A stretch of DNA of 32,140 nt from Erysipelotrichaceae bacterium (GTDB taxonomy: Bacteria > Bacillota_I > Bacilli_A > Erysipelotrichales > Erysipelotrichaceae), in NCBI GenBank assembly GCA_009773735.1, contig WSYG01000036.1, positions 1 to 32,140 on the forward strand, given 5' to 3'. Positions within the stretch are counted from its first letter, which is position 1, and each line of letters opens with the position of its first letter. Positions 1-32,140 of the stretch are shown in pieces. The translations under genes and the position numbers were made by a program. A model generated the notes under the pieces. The model saw only the letters and a list, made by a program, of their open reading frames with translations. It had not been told where the DNA came from and searched no databases.

Positions 1-124
1 GGACTCCTTTCGAATGAGTGTCGTAACTTTATTCTACGGCTTCCAATCCGTCTTTTACTACCCCTTCGAAAGTCTCACATCAATTGTAACTCTACAAAAC
101 TTTTTCGGTTTTAAAGTTACTTCA

Positions 125-153
125 TTGACATATACCGGTAATACATGTAAAAT
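125..153 (+). promoter_or_regulatory. Sigma-A-type promoter of the riboswitch transcript
   Basis: A consensus -35 box TTGACA (125-130) is followed after exactly 17 bp by TAAAAT (148-153), so transcription should start near 160, about 30 nt before the riboswitch core. The 124 bases to its left show no recognisable feature. Confidence 0.8.
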
Positions 154-189
154 TAAAGATGGTTTTGGTATTATGAATAACAATTGAAT

Positions 190-290
190 AACAGCGATAA
201 GGGCAAACCTGCTTAAAGGCAGGGACGCAAAGCCATAGGATCTAAGGTGCTTACCGGCACTATGATAGCCTGGTTGCCGTAATGATTGTA
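190..290 (+). promoter_or_regulatory. Cyclic di-GMP-I (GEMM) riboswitch
   Basis: The conserved GEMM-I core is present in order: GGCAAACC (202-209), a P2 stem CCTGC/GCAGG, then GGGACGCAAAGCC, CTAAGG, TATGATAGCC and the closing GGTTGCC (272-278), which pairs with the opening strand. Such RNAs bind cyclic di-GMP and control the downstream gene by transcription termination or translation. A terminator follows 10 nt later. No gene now follows on this strand, because the mobile element begins right after the ribosome binding site. The assignment rests on motif identity and is strong; whether ligand turns expression on or off cannot be read here. Confidence 0.93.
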
Positions 291-295
291 TGACT

Positions 296-326
296 AAATC
301 TGCCCTTTTAGGGGCAGATTTTTTTA
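296..326 (+). terminator. Riboswitch-linked intrinsic terminator
   Basis: A perfect 10-bp stem (AAATCTGCCC, 296-305, with GGGCAGATTT, 312-321) is followed by an uninterrupted T-run. It lies directly after the c-di-GMP aptamer, so it is the likely expression platform. Confidence 0.9.
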
Positions 327-358
327 TTCAAGCGCAGTGACTGACCTAATTGATATAC

Positions 359-365
359 AAGGAGG
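359..365 (+). promoter_or_regulatory. Orphan Shine-Dalgarno sequence of the riboswitch-controlled gene
   Basis: AAGGAGG stands 33 nt after the riboswitch terminator on the same strand. No ATG, GTG or TTG start follows at a normal distance. The next bases are the 3' end of an opposite-strand gene (stop at 371-373). This looks like the leader of a gene cut off at its start codon by insertion of the adjacent element (inference). Confidence 0.6.
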
Positions 366-370
366 AAGTA

Positions 371-694
371 CTATTTTTTTAACAGAGCTTCCACAGTCGC
401 AGTAATAACATCGATCTCGTGTTGATCACAAAGGGATAACAATCTATTCAAATTTCTATTTTGGGTGTTATTACTTTCCTGCTCTGGGTAGAAAATTGCA
501 TCTGCTGATAAGCCTAGTTTTCGAATAAGGCGGAATAGGACATCATAGCTTGGTTTCTTGTTTTCGTTTTCGATAGACATAAGATAGCGGGGGGTTATGT
601 TTATGATTTCCGATAATTGCTCCCGAGTCAGGCCTTTATATTTTCGAGCCTCCTTGAGGACATCGCCAAGTTTATCAAAATTATTATGCTCCAT
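371..694 (-). CDS. XRE-family transcriptional regulator
   Basis: This 107-residue protein carries a Cro/C1-type helix-turn-helix near residues 10-65, with recognisable text around LTREQLSEIINITPRYLMSI and a conserved hydrophobic stretch before LGLSADAIF. Its C-terminus (residues 75-107) is short and of unknown role. The start is supported by a GAGGTGAT ribosome binding site 5 nt upstream. It lies at the left border of the recombinase element and reads against the other element genes, a position where such regulators commonly control the element's excision genes (inference). The DNA-binding family is clear; the target is unknown. Confidence 0.85.
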   Translation of the reverse strand: MEHNNFDKLGDVLKEARKYKGLTREQLSEIINITPRYLMSIENENKKPSYDVLFRLIRKLGLSADAIFYPEQESNNTQNRNLNRLLSLCDQHEIDVITATVEALLKK

Positions 695-902
695 TGGATC
701 ACCTCAAATAACAGTCTACAGTTCTGGTATAGATAGTAAAACGATATTACAATTCTATATAAATAGGAGCCAGTAGTTCTTAATGCTGTTTGTGTCTACT
801 GCTCAGGGATAAAACTTGCATGGTTAAAAGTAAATTTGGTGGGTGAACACAATCGCGTCATGTAAAAAGTCCCCATCAAGTTTGCAGATTGGAGGGGGCA
901 TT

Positions 903-965
903 ATGCTTACCAGATATGCTTTTGACAACCAGTTGCAGTTTATTCTGATTAGTGCTTCGGCATAA
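903..965 (+). CDS. Possible 20-residue leader peptide
   Basis: An ATG follows a strong GGAGGGGG site (892-899) and opens a 20-codon frame ending at TAA 963-965. The last codons overlap a hairpin (GCTTCG 954-959 with CGAAGC 966-971). A peptide ending inside a hairpin suggests a leader, but a remnant of a decayed gene is as likely. The rest of 700-1100 shows no longer frame and no recognisable feature. Confidence 0.3.
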   Translation: MLTRYAFDNQLQFILISASA

Positions 966-1100
966 CGAAGCAGACATTCTTTATCTCTGTTTTACCATTC
1001 ATAAAACTGAACTGTTAAAAAAAGCCTACTCTATCCATCGGATTATTATAACCACTATGTAGAACTATCAGTACTTATTAATAGGAATCGAAAAGTCACT

Positions 1101-1137
1101 AACGCTTATTTGGACTATCGCCAAGTAAGCGTTTTTT
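1101..1137 (+). terminator. Intrinsic terminator before the sigma-like gene
   Basis: An 8-bp perfect stem AACGCTTA (1101-1108) with TAAGCGTT (1126-1133), extended inward by TTGG/CCAA, is followed by a T-run to 1137. It would end transcripts from the left, or act as an attenuator for the gene at 1220. Confidence 0.8.
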
Positions 1138-1175
1138 GTTGTAAAGAAGAGAATCCAGTCGGATGTCGCTCACCG

Positions 1176-1212
1176 CCTCCATTTTGATTTTTCAAAAAAA
1201 TCAAAATGGAGG
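1176..1212 (+). promoter_or_regulatory. 17-bp perfect hairpin masking the ribosome binding site of the sigma-like gene
   Basis: Bases 1176-1192 are the exact reverse complement of 1196-1212, leaving a 3-nt loop (CAA). The right arm ends in GGAGG (1208-1212), the only ribosome binding site for the ATG at 1220. In RNA the site would be fully paired, so translation should depend on something that opens the stem. The inverted repeat is seen directly; the control role is inferred. Confidence 0.75.
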
Positions 1213-1219
1213 TAAAGCA

Positions 1220-1663
1220 ATGAAAATCATAAACATACGACAAATTTACCCTTTTTACACATCAGATTGTTTTTGCGAAGTTTCAGACGAAATTGCAGAA
1301 CAACTAAGACAGTATGATCAACAAGACCACGCAGACTATGAACGCAGACGTATCCACAAAGCGTACTATTCTCTCGACGCTAACGACGGCATCGAAGATG
1401 AAATCGTCCTGTTGGTTTTATCGCCCGAGGAAATCTATGAGCGAAAACTATCCAATCAGGAATTGTACGCCGCTATTAACAGTCTGCCAGAAAAACAGGC
1501 GCATCGTATCTATGCATACTTCTTTCTTGGCATAAACAAGGCTGAAATTGCCCGGATTGAAGGTGTGAGTAAAACTGCGATAACACATTCCATTAAACAA
1601 GGATTAAAAAGCATGGGAAAATTTTTAGATGGATTTCCCCGAGAGGGTTACCTTTTCCCCTGA
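1220..1663 (+). CDS. Sigma-70 region 4-like protein of the mobile element
   Basis: The protein has 147 residues. The C-terminal half holds a region-4-type helix-turn-helix (LPEKQAHRIYAYFFLG, then KAEIARIEGVSKTAI), as in the small sigma-like proteins carried by many clostridial conjugative and mobilizable elements. No core-binding region 2 is seen, so it is probably a DNA-binding regulator rather than a full sigma factor. The start at 1220 is preferred over an ATG at 1163 because GGAGG ends 7 nt before it and family members begin MKIINIR-like. The upstream alternative would run through the hairpin. Confidence 0.8.
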   Translation: MKIINIRQIYPFYTSDCFCEVSDEIAEQLRQYDQQDHADYERRRIHKAYYSLDANDGIEDEIVLLVLSPEEIYERKLSNQELYAAINSLPEKQAHRIYAYFFLGINKAEIARIEGVSKTAITHSIKQGLKSMGKFLDGFPREGYLFP

Positions 1664-1676
1664 AAATCTGCTGGAT

Positions 1677-2170
1677 ATTAGAGGGACAACTTCTACCCTC
1701 TCAACTGAACCTTGACAACTGAATAGGCGTCTTTCCGGTACGTTCCCCGTATGTCCCGAGGAGGGAAAGCCAGATTGCAGGTACGCCAAGACCACCTGTC
1801 CGGCATCAAGCTGGATGGCAGCCGATAGATCAATGCCGCTCTTGCGGATTAGATGAAGGTATGGTGCGAGCGACTAATACCCGTGCATAAATAAATGCCG
1901 GCAGCATTTAAGGCGAAAACACATACGAAGGGATAATGATACTTCCGTCCAGCCACAGCCCTGCCTGAAAGCAGGATCACGCAATGGGGGCGGCTTGCAG
2001 AGAACCTGGGAGGGGTGAAATTCCCATGAGGACGGTCAAAGCCACCGTCCGCCGGATAAGGCTAGAAAAAGATAAAACCAAAACAGAGAATGTGGCATGG
2101 GGTATGCTTGTATTAAGCGTATGCATATGCGTATCCAAAACACAGGCATACCCTAAATGCCGCATTTCTT
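1677..2170 (+). ncRNA. Structured non-coding stretch within the element (candidate RNA)
   Basis: About 500 bases between the sigma-like gene and tnpW hold no convincing gene but a series of hairpins: GAGGG/CCCTC (1681-1700), CTTTCC/GGAAAG (1731-1769) with an inner GTACG/CGTAT, AAATGC/GCATTT (893-909 of the second kilobase, i.e. 1893-1909), CCTGC/GCAGG (1960-1975) and GGACGGT/ACCGTCC (2030-2050). The last is GGGTATGC/GCATACCC (2100-2153), extended by GGCAT/ATGCC, ending about 15 nt before the tnpW ribosome binding site. Base composition is GC-rich relative to the host. It may be a leader or a conserved element RNA. I do not recognise a named family; no group II intron domain V or intron protein is present. 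Confidence 0.4.
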
Positions 2171-2191
2171 ACCATATGGAGGTGTAACAAT

Positions 2192-2374
2192 ATGTCTGCG
2201 CTCACGCAAAAGCAGCTTCAAACAGGTGGGCAGCATAATGTCCGTATAGGCTCTACCACCTTTATTGTGTCTTCTCATTTTAATGAAAAGTCAAAAGAAA
2301 ATCTAAGCTCCAAGCTCATCCGACTGGTCGGAAAAGAATACGAGAAAGATAGTAAACCTGAAATCGCAGATTAG
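2192..2374 (+). CDS. tnpW: TnpW-like transposon-encoded protein
   Basis: This 60-residue protein matches the small TnpW proteins of Tn4451-type elements, with the characteristic centre VRIGSTTFIVSSHF followed by a lysine-rich KSKENLSSKLIRL region. The function of TnpW is not established; it travels next to the large serine recombinase genes. GGAGGT lies 8 nt before the ATG. It precedes the two recombinase-type genes in the same direction with an 80-nt gap. Confidence 0.75.
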   Translation: MSALTQKQLQTGGQHNVRIGSTTFIVSSHFNEKSKENLSSKLIRLVGKEYEKDSKPEIAD

Positions 2375-2454
2375 ACAGCAGGCAGTATAAGAGGGTATCA
2401 TTGTTGTGATACTGAACCCCTGACTGGTTTGGCTGTCGGAAATGGAGGTTTAAG

Positions 2455-4523
<2,069 letters not shown>

Positions 4524-4548
4524 CAACAAGTGTTATGCCATTGTGTAA

Positions 4549-4719
4549 AGAACTTTACTTCTTTACGACACCCCACCTAATGCGGAGTTCCTTTTGGTGT
4601 ATAGCGAGGTTGTTTTAGTCAATCTTCAAAACATTCCCGATTGGTCCTTATCTTTAAATCAAACTCCACTTTCGTACATACAAGAAGGCTCATATTCATT
4701 GAAGAAGGAGATTGGGTAA
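4549..4719 (+). pseudogene. Start-less gene fragment right of the recombinase element
   Basis: A 56-codon open frame without a start codon runs to TAA 4717-4719 and reads like protein (NAEFLLVYSEVVLVNLQ, then NIPDWSLSLNQ). It starts just past the recombinase stop, after a hairpin (GTAAAGAA/TTCTTTAC, 4545-4567). It is on the same strand as the orphaned riboswitch at the other end of the element, so it could be the rest of the riboswitch-controlled gene. I do not recognise the family. Bases 4720-4848 hold no further feature. Confidence 0.35.
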
Positions 4720-11553: not shown

Positions 11554-11648
11554 TTTAAAAGATTCACGACTTCTACACAAATAGATGATATGTTTAATCC
11601 GATAGTTTAGTGTCAAATCCGCAAAGGAACTCAAAGAGAGGTAGCACA

Positions 11649-12911
11649 ATGTCAAAATCTCCACTTATTCGATCATTTACGATATTTAGTCTATTAGCGT
11701 TCATTATTACGGGGGTTATTCTTTCCTCTATAACGTCGCAACACATTAGAAATGATAAGGTCTTTAATCTATATGAAGTCTCCAGAATGGCAATTGATAC
11801 TACTTTTCCTGATCTTGATTTTGATATAGATTCTAATGATATGTTGGCTGTTGAGATCAAAGAAGTCATCGATACCAAAATTCGAAACCACCTTATTGCC
11901 TATGATGTACATTCAATTTCAGTGTTTAATAATCAGAAAAAAATAATTATGACGGATGATCAAACTTTCCTAGAAATCAGCAAAATATCTTACATTTACG
12001 ACCAGTTATTCGTTGAACGCAAGAATTTCATAAAATCGAATACCTTCAACTCAAATGATCCCTCACAACCAAATGCAATGAGTTTCGATCTATATATCCC
12101 CATTACTACCAACTCCAATTCTAATGGTGTTGTAGTTATTCGGTTTTCCGATAGTATAATAACAACTCATGCTAACGAATTGGTGCTTTTAATTGTCATT
12201 ACAATGGTGGGAGGCTTGATTATTTTGTTTGCATTATTGATTGGGATTATGTATAAGACCTCACAAACATTACTAAAACAAAACGATGCTTTGAAACTAA
12301 AAAATGAAGAACTGGAATCAGCAAACAAGACAATTGATAAAGCCTATGTTAATACTGTCATCGCAATTTCAAACGCAGTAGATGCCCGAGACCCTTATAC
12401 CGCAGGTCACTCATCAAGAGTATCAACAATATCATTAGCGATCGCAAAAGTAATTAACCTATCAGAAGATGATATAAAGACTTTGGAATATGCTACTCTA
12501 TTTCATGACATAGGAAAAATTGGAATTTCAGATGCAATTTTAAACAAGGCTGGGAAACTCAATGATGAGGAATACGCTCAAATGAAGAAACACCCCGAAA
12601 TAGGGATCAATATTCTGTCAGGAATTGAGTTTCTCGAAAAATCATTATCTATTATAAAACATCACCACGAAAGATTTGATGGGAGAGGTTATCCGGATGG
12701 GTTAGTGGGAGATGAGATCCCATTAGGTTCTCGAATCGTGGCAATTGCGGATACCTTTGATGCCATGACTACTGATCGGCCATATCGAAAAGGGGTAAGT
12801 TCATCGGTTGCTATTTCTGAAATCATTAAGAACAGCGGATCTCAGTTCGATGGTAGTTTAGTTGATTCTTTTTTGAAAATTGATCTCATTGAAGTATTAA
12901 ATCGCAGTTGA
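11649..12911 (+). CDS. Membrane-bound HD-GYP cyclic di-GMP phosphodiesterase
   Basis: The 420-residue protein has an N-terminal membrane helix (about 10-30), an extracytoplasmic sensor region, a second helix (about 180-205) and a short coiled coil. A complete HD-GYP domain follows (about 230-410), with HDIGKIGI and HHHERFDGRGYPDGL. HD-GYP enzymes hydrolyse cyclic di-GMP, so a signal sensed outside the cell probably lowers the messenger. The start at 11649 is chosen because GAGAGGT lies 7 nt before it; the earlier ATG at 11610 has no site. It stands alone, ended by its own terminator. The ligand of the sensor part is unknown. Confidence 0.92.
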   Translation: MSKSPLIRSFTIFSLLAFIITGVILSSITSQHIRNDKVFNLYEVSRMAIDTTFPDLDFDIDSNDMLAVEIKEVIDTKIRNHLIAYDVHSISVFNNQKKIIMTDDQTFLEISKISYIYDQLFVERKNFIKSNTFNSNDPSQPNAMSFDLYIPITTNSNSNGVVVIRFSDSIITTHANELVLLIVITMVGGLIILFALLIGIMYKTSQTLLKQNDALKLKNEELESANKTIDKAYVNTVIAISNAVDARDPYTAGHSSRVSTISLAIAKVINLSEDDIKTLEYATLFHDIGKIGISDAILNKAGKLNDEEYAQMKKHPEIGINILSGIEFLEKSLSIIKHHHERFDGRGYPDGLVGDEIPLGSRIVAIADTFDAMTTDRPYRKGVSSSVAISEIIKNSGSQFDGSLVDSFLKIDLIEVLNRS

Positions 12912-27572: not shown

Positions 27573-28493
27573 TTACTTCTTCTCCATAAAGATGTTTTGA
27601 CTTAAATATCGCTCACCTCGATCGTAGAATATGGTTACTATGTTTCCACGTTCTAAAGTTTTTGCTAATTTGATTGCCGCTGCAAGATTCGCACCGGAAG
27701 AACTTCCCACAAATAATCCCGTTTTTGCAGCAATTTCTCGAACCATCGTAAAGGCTTGTGCATCGCTTACTTTGATTATTTGATCAACCAAAGAAAGATC
27801 CATAGTCTGTGGAATGAATCCATTTCCTATCCCTTCAATCGCATATTGTCCATGAATACCTCCACCAATAATCGATCCGTCGGGATCAGCCAAGACTCCA
27901 ATAATCTTTCGATCCTGCTCTTTCAAGTATCGTGTTATTCCACTATACGTCCCACCCGAACCTGCTCCAGCTACAAAATACTGAATATCCCCTTCAAGAT
28001 CCCGATATATTTCGGGACCCGTACTCAGGTAATGTGCATTTGGATTCTCAGGGTTGTCGAATTGGTTAATCGATAGACTTTCTGGAATACTTTTACGAAT
28101 TTGCTTTGCCTTATCTATTGCTCCTTGCATGCCAAGATTCTCATCTGTGTTCACTACTTGCGCTCCCATTGCACGCAACAATTGCTGTTTCTCGATTGAA
28201 AACTTAGTTGGAATGACCAAGATCAAATTCACTCCAGTATTTACGAGTGCGAATGCCAATCCCAATCCGGTATTTCCAGCTGTAGCCTCAACAATCGTCA
28301 TGCCTGGTTTTAATTTCTTTGTTTTGAAGAGTTGATTGACCATATGGATACCGATGCGGTCTTTAACTCCTCCTGCAGGGTTCTGTAATTCCAACTTTAC
28401 ATAGATATTAACGTTTTCATTCACTCTAAACGCTTCAAGCAACAACAACGGAGTGTCTTTGACAAGTTCCTTCGGATCTCTAAAGAGTGCCAT
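27573..28493 (-). CDS. mccA: Cystathionine beta-synthase / cysteine synthase family (MccA-like)
   Basis: The 306-residue PLP enzyme has the cofactor lysine motif NPAGGVKDR, the TAGNTG substrate loop and the phosphate-binding GSGGTYSG. The family includes CysK and MccA. Its neighbours (methyltransferase, cystathionine lyase, luxS) match the reverse transsulfuration operon of Bacillus (yrrT-mtnN-mccA-mccB). It therefore more likely joins homocysteine and (O-acetyl)serine to cystathionine than makes cysteine directly. The start overlaps the preceding stop by one base (TAATG). Confidence 0.87.
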   Translation of the reverse strand: MALFRDPKELVKDTPLLLLEAFRVNENVNIYVKLELQNPAGGVKDRIGIHMVNQLFKTKKLKPGMTIVEATAGNTGLGLAFALVNTGVNLILVIPTKFSIEKQQLLRAMGAQVVNTDENLGMQGAIDKAKQIRKSIPESLSINQFDNPENPNAHYLSTGPEIYRDLEGDIQYFVAGAGSGGTYSGITRYLKEQDRKIIGVLADPDGSIIGGGIHGQYAIEGIGNGFIPQTMDLSLVDQIIKVSDAQAFTMVREIAAKTGLFVGSSSGANLAAAIKLAKTLERGNIVTIFYDRGERYLSQNIFMEKK

Positions 28494-29580
28494 TACAGTA
28501 CACGCGCCAGCGCGAAAGCTTGCATCAAATCGTCAATTAAGTCCGAGTAATGTTCACAACCGACAGAAAGGCGAATCAGTTGATCGACTATCCCGATCGA
28601 TGCTCGATACGCCGCAGGATAGCTGGCATGCGTCATGGATGCCGGATGGGAGATGAGTGATTCAATTCCGCCCAGGCTTTCTGCCAGACTTATTGTTTTA
28701 AGTGAAGATAAAAAGATATTGATATGGATGGAATCATCCAATACGAATGAGATCATTCCGACACTGCCCTTGGATTGGGTGTATGCTAAAATGTGATTTG
28801 GATGATCCAAAAGACTTGGATGATATATTTTAACCACATTTGGATTTGTCTGAAGAAATTCCAAGATCTCTTCTGTATTTTCAAGATGCCGATCCATCCG
28901 CATCGCCAGTGTCTTTATGCCTCGAATTAGGAGAAAAGAATCTTGTGGGCCGAGTATAGCACCCATTGCATAAGATCGCTATGTCCGCCTAGATATTTAG
29001 TTCCGCTATGAATGACGACATCAGCGCCTAATAATAGAGGCTTTTGGAGATAAGGCGTCATAAAAGTATTATCTACAATCAAAATTGAGTTGTGCATTTT
29101 GGCGATTCTTGATATGCCGGCGATATCACTGATTCCGAGTAAAGGATTCGTGGGTGATTCGATAAAAACCGCTTTATATGCAATGGAAAAAGCATTTTCA
29201 ACATTGAGTAGATCACTTGTATCGATCATAGTGTAATTAATACCAAATCGTTTAAACACTTTATCGATGACACGATATGTCCCTCCATAAAGATTGTTTG
29301 AAATCAGGATTCGATCACCTTGACTAAACAAGGACAAAACCGTTGTGATCGCAGCCATCCCTGAACTGAATGCAAAACCTTCATCACCTTCTTCTAAATC
29401 CCTAATCAAGCTTTCCAATGCACTGCGAGTGGGATTTTTTGTACGTGCATATTCATAACCTGAATTGACACCCATGGATATTTGTCTAAACGTGGCGGTT
29501 TGATAAATCGGGGTATTAACCGATCCTGTTAGTTGATCGATTGTGTTACCTCCGTGAATAGTCATCGTTTCTATTTTCAC
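28493..29580 (-). pseudogene. mccB: Cystathionine gamma-lyase/synthase (MccB/MetB-like), broken by internal deletion
   Basis: Two overlapping frames together give a Cys/Met-metabolism PLP enzyme. The first (from GTG 29580) contains MTIHGG, ARTKNPTRSALE, VDNTFMTPYLQKPL and the PLP lysine SGTKYLGGHSDLM. The second (ending 28493) contains AMGAILGPQDSFLLIRGIKTLAMRMDRH and the C-terminal domain. In the family about 20-25 residues lie between GGHSDLM and the GAILGP-like motif; here they are missing, and the frame changes at about 28965. The missing DNA is about 60 nt and not a multiple of three. The gene is probably inactive, unless this is a sequencing or assembly error. It overlaps the genes on both sides. 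Confidence 0.85.
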
Positions 29581-30234: not shown

Positions 30235-30500
30235 ATAAAAATAAAAAGACTAAAGCCAATAAGAGGCGATAGTCTTTCCGCGGTTCCACTCTTTTTGGGT
30301 CAAATAAAAATTCAACCCATCTTTTCGGGTACAATCATACCCTAACGCTATAACAGGCGTACCTGCAGGCAACTACATTTTCGTTGCCTTTGCTCCAAGA
30401 CGCATTCACATCACATCTACCAGAAGTCACTTTCAGCTAGCGGACTTCTCTCTGTTGGTTTCAGTGAAGCTACTATTTCTTTTCACAGCATTTTGTTCAC
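30235..30500 (-). promoter_or_regulatory. T-box leader with a cysteine (TGC) specifier
   Basis: On the minus strand the leader has the AGTA of the specifier-loop E motif (30474-30471) and AGAGAG in stem I. The partner GAA (30407-30405) is followed directly by the codon TGC (30404-30402). The T-box AGTGGAACCGCGG lies at 30290-30278. A terminator follows: stem AAAGACTA/TAGTCTTT (30277-30270 and 30252-30245) and a T-run. Uncharged tRNA-Cys would stabilise the antiterminator and switch the operon on when cysteine is scarce. This supports a cysteine-forming role for the operon. Confidence 0.92.
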
Positions 30501-31768: not shown

Positions 31769-32140
31769 TTAAAGTAGAGAATTCTTTGAAATTTCATCTC
31801 TACTATAATATACCATCGTTGTTTTATCGTAAATCACCACTTGATTTTTTCCTTGTTTTTTGGCGGTCAATAAAGCGAAATCACTTGCCTTAATTGTGTT
31901 TTCAATAGTTAAAGAATCTTCCGGCATTGAGGCGACACCTGCCGAAATCGTTATATTTGGATAAGACGAATCTCTTTCATCACGAATTTTCCCCACAACA
32001 CTTTGTGCAATTTTATATGCTTCATTTTTGTTGCAACGGTTTAAAATTATTATGAATTCCTCACCGCCAAATCGGTATGCTTTGTCACTTTCCCTTATGC
32101 AACTTTTAATAATATTTGCACATCGGATAAGAACTTGATC
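31769..32140 (-). CDS. GGDEF diguanylate cyclase, C-terminal part (cut by window edge)
   Basis: The open frame continues through the right edge; 123 residues are visible. They contain YRFGGEEF, an active-type GGEEF site, preceded at five residues by RESD, the RxxD inhibitory product-binding site. The later ISAGVAS and ASDFALLTAKKQGKNQVV are typical of the domain end. The enzyme makes cyclic di-GMP from two GTP and should be product-inhibited. The sensor part lies outside the window. It reads on the minus strand, with stop TAA at 31769-31771. Confidence 0.92.
   Translation of the reverse strand, partial: DQVLIRCANIIKSCIRESDKAYRFGGEEFIIILNRCNKNEAYKIAQSVVGKIRDERDSSYPNITISAGVASMPEDSLTIENTIKASDFALLTAKKQGKNQVVIYDKTTMVYYSRDEISKNSLL

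Follow-up and report, generated by a model that had tools for sequence, protein, structure and literature searches.

An orphaned class-I c-di-GMP riboswitch leader between an insertion-sequence end and a truncated serine-recombinase module

Unlike c-di-GMP-I riboswitches generally, the leader described here has no regulated gene downstream, which raises the question of how a complete riboswitch came to stand alone. It lies in a window of 32,140 nucleotides (contig 18 of a 1.94-Mb Erysipelotrichaceae draft genome in 82 contigs), where an intact promoter, aptamer, terminator and Shine-Dalgarno sequence are followed by no open reading frame and are bounded by an insertion-sequence end on one side and the truncated module of a mobile element on the other. 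The explanation that we favour, with a probability of roughly 0.68, is that this OFF-type class-I leader lost its gene, and that mobile DNA came to lie on both sides of it through deletion or rearrangement and the landing of an insertion sequence.

A complete leader and its predicted switching

The complete GEMM-I leader spans positions 125-366 on the plus strand. Its aptamer (192-281) matched the c-di-GMP-I (GEMM-I) family RF01051 over the full model (positions 1-87) with 79.7 bits and an E value of 2.4e-14 in cmscan, against a gathering score of 35 bits and with no non-standard pairs, so that it resembles the known members in sequence and structure throughout; in a genome-wide search the same aptamer had an E value of 3.4e-16. 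Upstream lies a sigma-70-type promoter (TTGACA-17-TAAAAT, about 125-154) that agrees with the consensus at 11 of 12 positions. Downstream, an intrinsic terminator with an 11-bp stem (296-321) and a T tail (to 327) folds within the full leader (z -2.98), as in C. difficile, where most type-I riboswitches act through a transcription-terminator platform (PMC3649979, PMC7699646). The leader ends in the Shine-Dalgarno sequence AAGGAGG (about 360-366), and inspection of the sequence 3' of it revealed no ATG, GTG or TTG at a usable distance. The earlier note, which had described all of these elements as intact and the start codon as absent, was right on this point. Because gene control is not part of the RF01051 definition, the aptamer stays a member of the family even though no start codon follows and the adjoining gene, xre, is on the opposite strand.

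The expression platform appears capable of switching. In folds of partial transcripts ending at 306-310, the 5' arm of the terminator (301-307, TGCCCTT) pairs with 199-205 (AAGGGCA), and this predicted antiterminator (199-307) overlaps one strand (202-206, partner 274-278) of a P1-type helix, which it thereby excludes. Once the 3' arm has been made, the full terminator is favoured (-49.0 kcal/mol, compared with -39.7 kcal/mol when the antiterminator is forced), and switching would therefore be kinetic. This modelled layout is that of an OFF switch in which a ligand-stabilised P1 would promote termination: binding of c-di-GMP would stabilise the P1-type helix and free the terminator arm, and transcription would end with an RNA of about 165 nt, on the assumption that transcription starts near 161. 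At low c-di-GMP, read-through would instead yield an untranslated RNA antisense to xre, stopping near 1140 at a predicted terminator (1101-1140, plus strand) with a 13-bp stem (1101-1133) and a T tail.

Mobile DNA on both sides of the leader

Positions 1-96 (minus strand), at the contig edge, form the right end of an IS1202-like insertion sequence (ends TCTACA/TGTAGA) that the earlier note had missed. The same sequence recurs at the starts of four further contigs of this genome (C3, C57, C66 and C80), and a scan for the terminal motif found the right end five times and the left end four times. The other four copies pair with perfect target duplications of 24-25 bp and ends TGTAGA; for the copy in the window there is no left partner, and its target duplication is absent elsewhere in the assembly. 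The four paired copies combine a target duplication, which we take to be about 24-29 bp in the IS1202 family, with imperfect terminal inverted repeats. Such repeats are 24-26 bp long in this family (PMC10132070). Together, the ends and target duplications point to the IS1202 family; the body of the insertion sequence lies on no contig examined. Since 1-96 are an insertion-sequence end, both flanks of the leader have been severed.

On the right, the leader abuts an XRE-family regulator (Orf9-like, PF01381/PF12844) that is complete at 107 aa (371-694, minus strand). The earlier note had this gene beginning immediately after the leader; it does adjoin the leader, but it ends there, with its stop codon at 371-373, its start at 694 and its 3' end facing the riboswitch. 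Full-length homologues of xre were found next to serine recombinases, and none was found in viral contigs. Beyond it, on the plus strand, lie a sigma-70 region-4-like regulator (Orf7-like; 1220-1663; PF08281, 8e-7), a pemK RNA (1933-2029; RF02913, 72.1 bits) that is also present in several related elements, TnpW (2192-2374; PF14202, 1.6e-10), a short resolvase-domain protein (2455-2880; PF00239, 2e-20) and a large serine recombinase (2877-4523; PF00239, PF07508, PF13408 and PF14287). The recombinase is up to 57% identical to those in elements of Clostridia and Erysipelotrichales (Holdemania), and several elements of its relatives also carry a homologous xre. Near-identical copies of relatives diverge about 100-125 bp past the equivalent of recombinase residue 534, so that the right end of the element in the window is expected near 4592-4597. 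The approximate end predicted there, at about 4583-4597 (CGGAGTTCCTTTT), resembles the CGGGAGGCACCTTT end of the relatives.

The order of divergent xre, sigma-like gene, TnpW and large serine recombinase is the usual one of Tn916/Tn1549/Tn4451-type modules. Unlike those elements, the module in the window has no mobilization, conjugation or left-end genes and stops abruptly at the riboswitch, with only the leader and the insertion-sequence end past xre; hence, although the recombinase and regulatory module of a Tn916/Tn1549-like ICE are present, we call it a remnant. The window holds the regulation and integration end, on the right-hand side, of a Tn916/Tn1549-like element (ICE or IME) that lacks its left part; in larger elements, xre with the sigma-like, pemK, TnpW and recombinase genes is conserved as such a right-hand module. 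In all 23 related xre loci examined (23/23), the 3' end of xre faces further genes, of cargo or mobilization type, so that xre is internal to the element; these genes include MobC, a relaxase, ABC transporters, a response regulator, a membrane transporter and others, names that were read from the sequences and not assigned by family search. Because xre is internal in these loci, the join at 367-371 resembles a deletion junction more than an intact left end, and it is more likely to be the former than the attachment end of an intact insertion.

Several minor features were seen in this module. On either side of xre lie the arms of a 19-bp inverted repeat (84%; 367-385 and 1012-1030). It might have been the border of a transposon, but it is partly a T run, shows no target duplication and may be due to chance. 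The GGAGG of the sigma-like frame starting at 1220 falls within a very stable perfect hairpin (1176-1212, z -7.1), and the ribosome-binding site of that frame is accordingly predicted to be occluded. In two elements, the Rfam model SQ2397 (HTH-factor cis-regulator) matches just upstream of the xre homologue (L120:1761-1989 and L125:1260-1489); no such match was found at xre in the window.

Probable loss of the regulated gene

Orphaning was probably brought about by deletion or rearrangement of a mobile element and not by simple insertion. A deletion or rearrangement would have removed the regulated gene and, with it, the part of a Tn916/Tn1549-like element that held its left end, mobilization genes and cargo, leaving the Shine-Dalgarno sequence of the leader fused to the 3' end of xre, and the IS1202-like sequence would have landed just upstream of the riboswitch promoter. 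Most likely, the leader is a vestige that still makes the terminated RNA of about 165 nt.

The earlier note had proposed instead that an element inserted exactly at the start of a c-di-GMP-controlled gene, of which a start-less frame at 4549-4719 (plus strand) might be the remainder. On this account an intact minimal serine-recombinase element (about 370-4595) would have entered between the Shine-Dalgarno and coding sequences, leaving about 4596-4719 of the gene beyond it. The recombinase does have all expected domains, the predicted right end (about 4592-4597) falls inside the frame, and a fusion of the leader to about 4596 would bring a TTG or GTG codon within acceptable reach of AAGGAGG. 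However, the module is truncated, with an xre that is internal in every related locus examined, and the predicted right end showed no inverted symmetry with 97-460 above background; nor was a long shared repeat found that would mark 367-400 as its partner, the longest repeats being 8-9 bp and off the junction. The frame itself exists but argues against the proposal, since an open frame of its length arises in 58% of random sequences of the same composition, and its codon score over 4597-4716 is exceeded by 99% of true 40-codon windows but is reached by 17.5% of windows taken in a wrong frame. It has no Pfam match and no convincing homologue in 41 genomes; the best match (E 0.002) contains an internal stop and lies antisense to a riboflavin-biosynthesis-like gene. 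On the grounds of homology, codon usage and the chance frequency of such frames, we judge that 4549-4719 is not a credible remainder of a gene, and we regard an intact insertion as unlikely. What stands of the proposal is a genuine, intact leader that has no gene and abuts mobile DNA.

The comparison with relatives lacking the element that the note had suggested was made in 272 genomes of the family, and no empty site joining the leader to the right flank was found among them; all matches were short, and the best one fell within the aptamer. Nor did sister genomes, compared by the synteny of the right-flank lipoprotein gene, reveal an ancestral neighbour of the riboswitch. As neither an empty site nor an ancestral arrangement appeared in the 272 genomes, the loss of the gene is inferred and not seen.

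Could the leader have acquired a new role? Read-through at low c-di-GMP might cover xre, lower the repressor and so tune the element, the riboswitch having been captured as a c-di-GMP-gated antisense RNA. The convergent geometry suits such a role: the sole hairpin on the plus strand before the strong terminator (1101-1133) is a weak one at 953-972, and read-through would span all of xre. There are also precedents. In a survey of antisense-acting riboswitches, c-di-GMP was the most over-represented family, and one riboswitch, a c-di-GMP-I member in Paenibacillus, was proposed to act antisense to an XRE gene that it faces (PMC9943018). In C. difficile prophages, c-di-GMP-I riboswitches precede antisense antitoxin RNAs (PMC7699646); Cdi1_4 and Cdi1_5, before RCd11 and RCd12, resemble our leader in being mobile-element switches, which yield a non-coding RNA by read-through besides a terminated one of about 140 nt. 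In those systems, however, the antisense RNA is transcribed from a promoter of its own, its toxin partner has been demonstrated and the riboswitch-led transcript was dispensable for toxin control (PMC7699646), whereas the geometry in the window is a prediction. Moreover, the Shine-Dalgarno sequence shows that the leader once preceded a protein-coding gene, chance insertion of the element has been given as the explanation for riboswitches that lie antisense to transposase genes (PMC9943018), and a c-di-GMP riboswitch lay beside none of the related xre/recombinase loci scanned, so that conservation gives co-option no support. We therefore hold antisense tuning of the element to be quite improbable, and co-option of the leader as an antisense RNA to the gene for the element's repressor, xre, to be very improbable; if true, it would tie the regulation of the element to a biofilm and motility signal. 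An assembly artefact, in which the leader and the xre module would lie apart in the real genome, is conceivable in a draft whose window starts at a repeat-broken contig edge but is highly doubtful, as no repeat was seen at 367-371 that would cause a chimeric join, and leader and element each occur once in the assembly.

Loss of the gene by deletion or rearrangement, the reading that we prefer, places the leader in a known kind, as orphaned and antisense c-di-GMP riboswitches have been described before (PMC9943018). The catalogue of TE-orphaned and antisense riboswitches in that study includes intact switches facing the 3' end of an opposite-strand mobile gene, as here; our case differs in that the neighbour is the xre of an ICE remnant and not a transposase, the Shine-Dalgarno sequence has been kept and the ancestral gene was not recovered. 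It is probably an ordinary, if well-preserved, relic. Nevertheless, it is a clean example of a riboswitch that has outlived its gene, it illustrates how, through mobile DNA, a cis-regulator can become a potential antisense RNA, and it cautions that the position of a riboswitch alone is insufficient for assigning c-di-GMP targets.

c-di-GMP signalling in the genome and genus

The window also encodes c-di-GMP machinery, namely an HD-GYP protein (11610-12911) and a GGDEF fragment (31769-31996); together with a second GEMM-I leader, which precedes a type IV pilus operon, these genes indicate that the genome uses c-di-GMP signalling. In other genomes of the genus, GEMM-I leaders immediately precede pilus, surface and PAS-like signalling genes, and the orphan leader most likely once controlled a gene of one of these types. 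The pilus operon, led by the only other c-di-GMP-I riboswitch of the genome, is itself interrupted: an IS1202-like insertion with a 24-bp duplication, found at the end of contig C25 (L023:12769-12792) and the start of C80, splits pilT.

Two further observations concern other genes in the window. A T-box leader (30259-30495, minus strand) precedes genes for a methyltransferase, a Cys/Met enzyme and a cysteine-synthase-like protein. The gene for a PLP enzyme of Cys/Met metabolism at 28493-29580 is split into overlapping frames (28927-29580 and 28493-28966), both matching PF01053; either a frameshift or an error of assembly is suggested.
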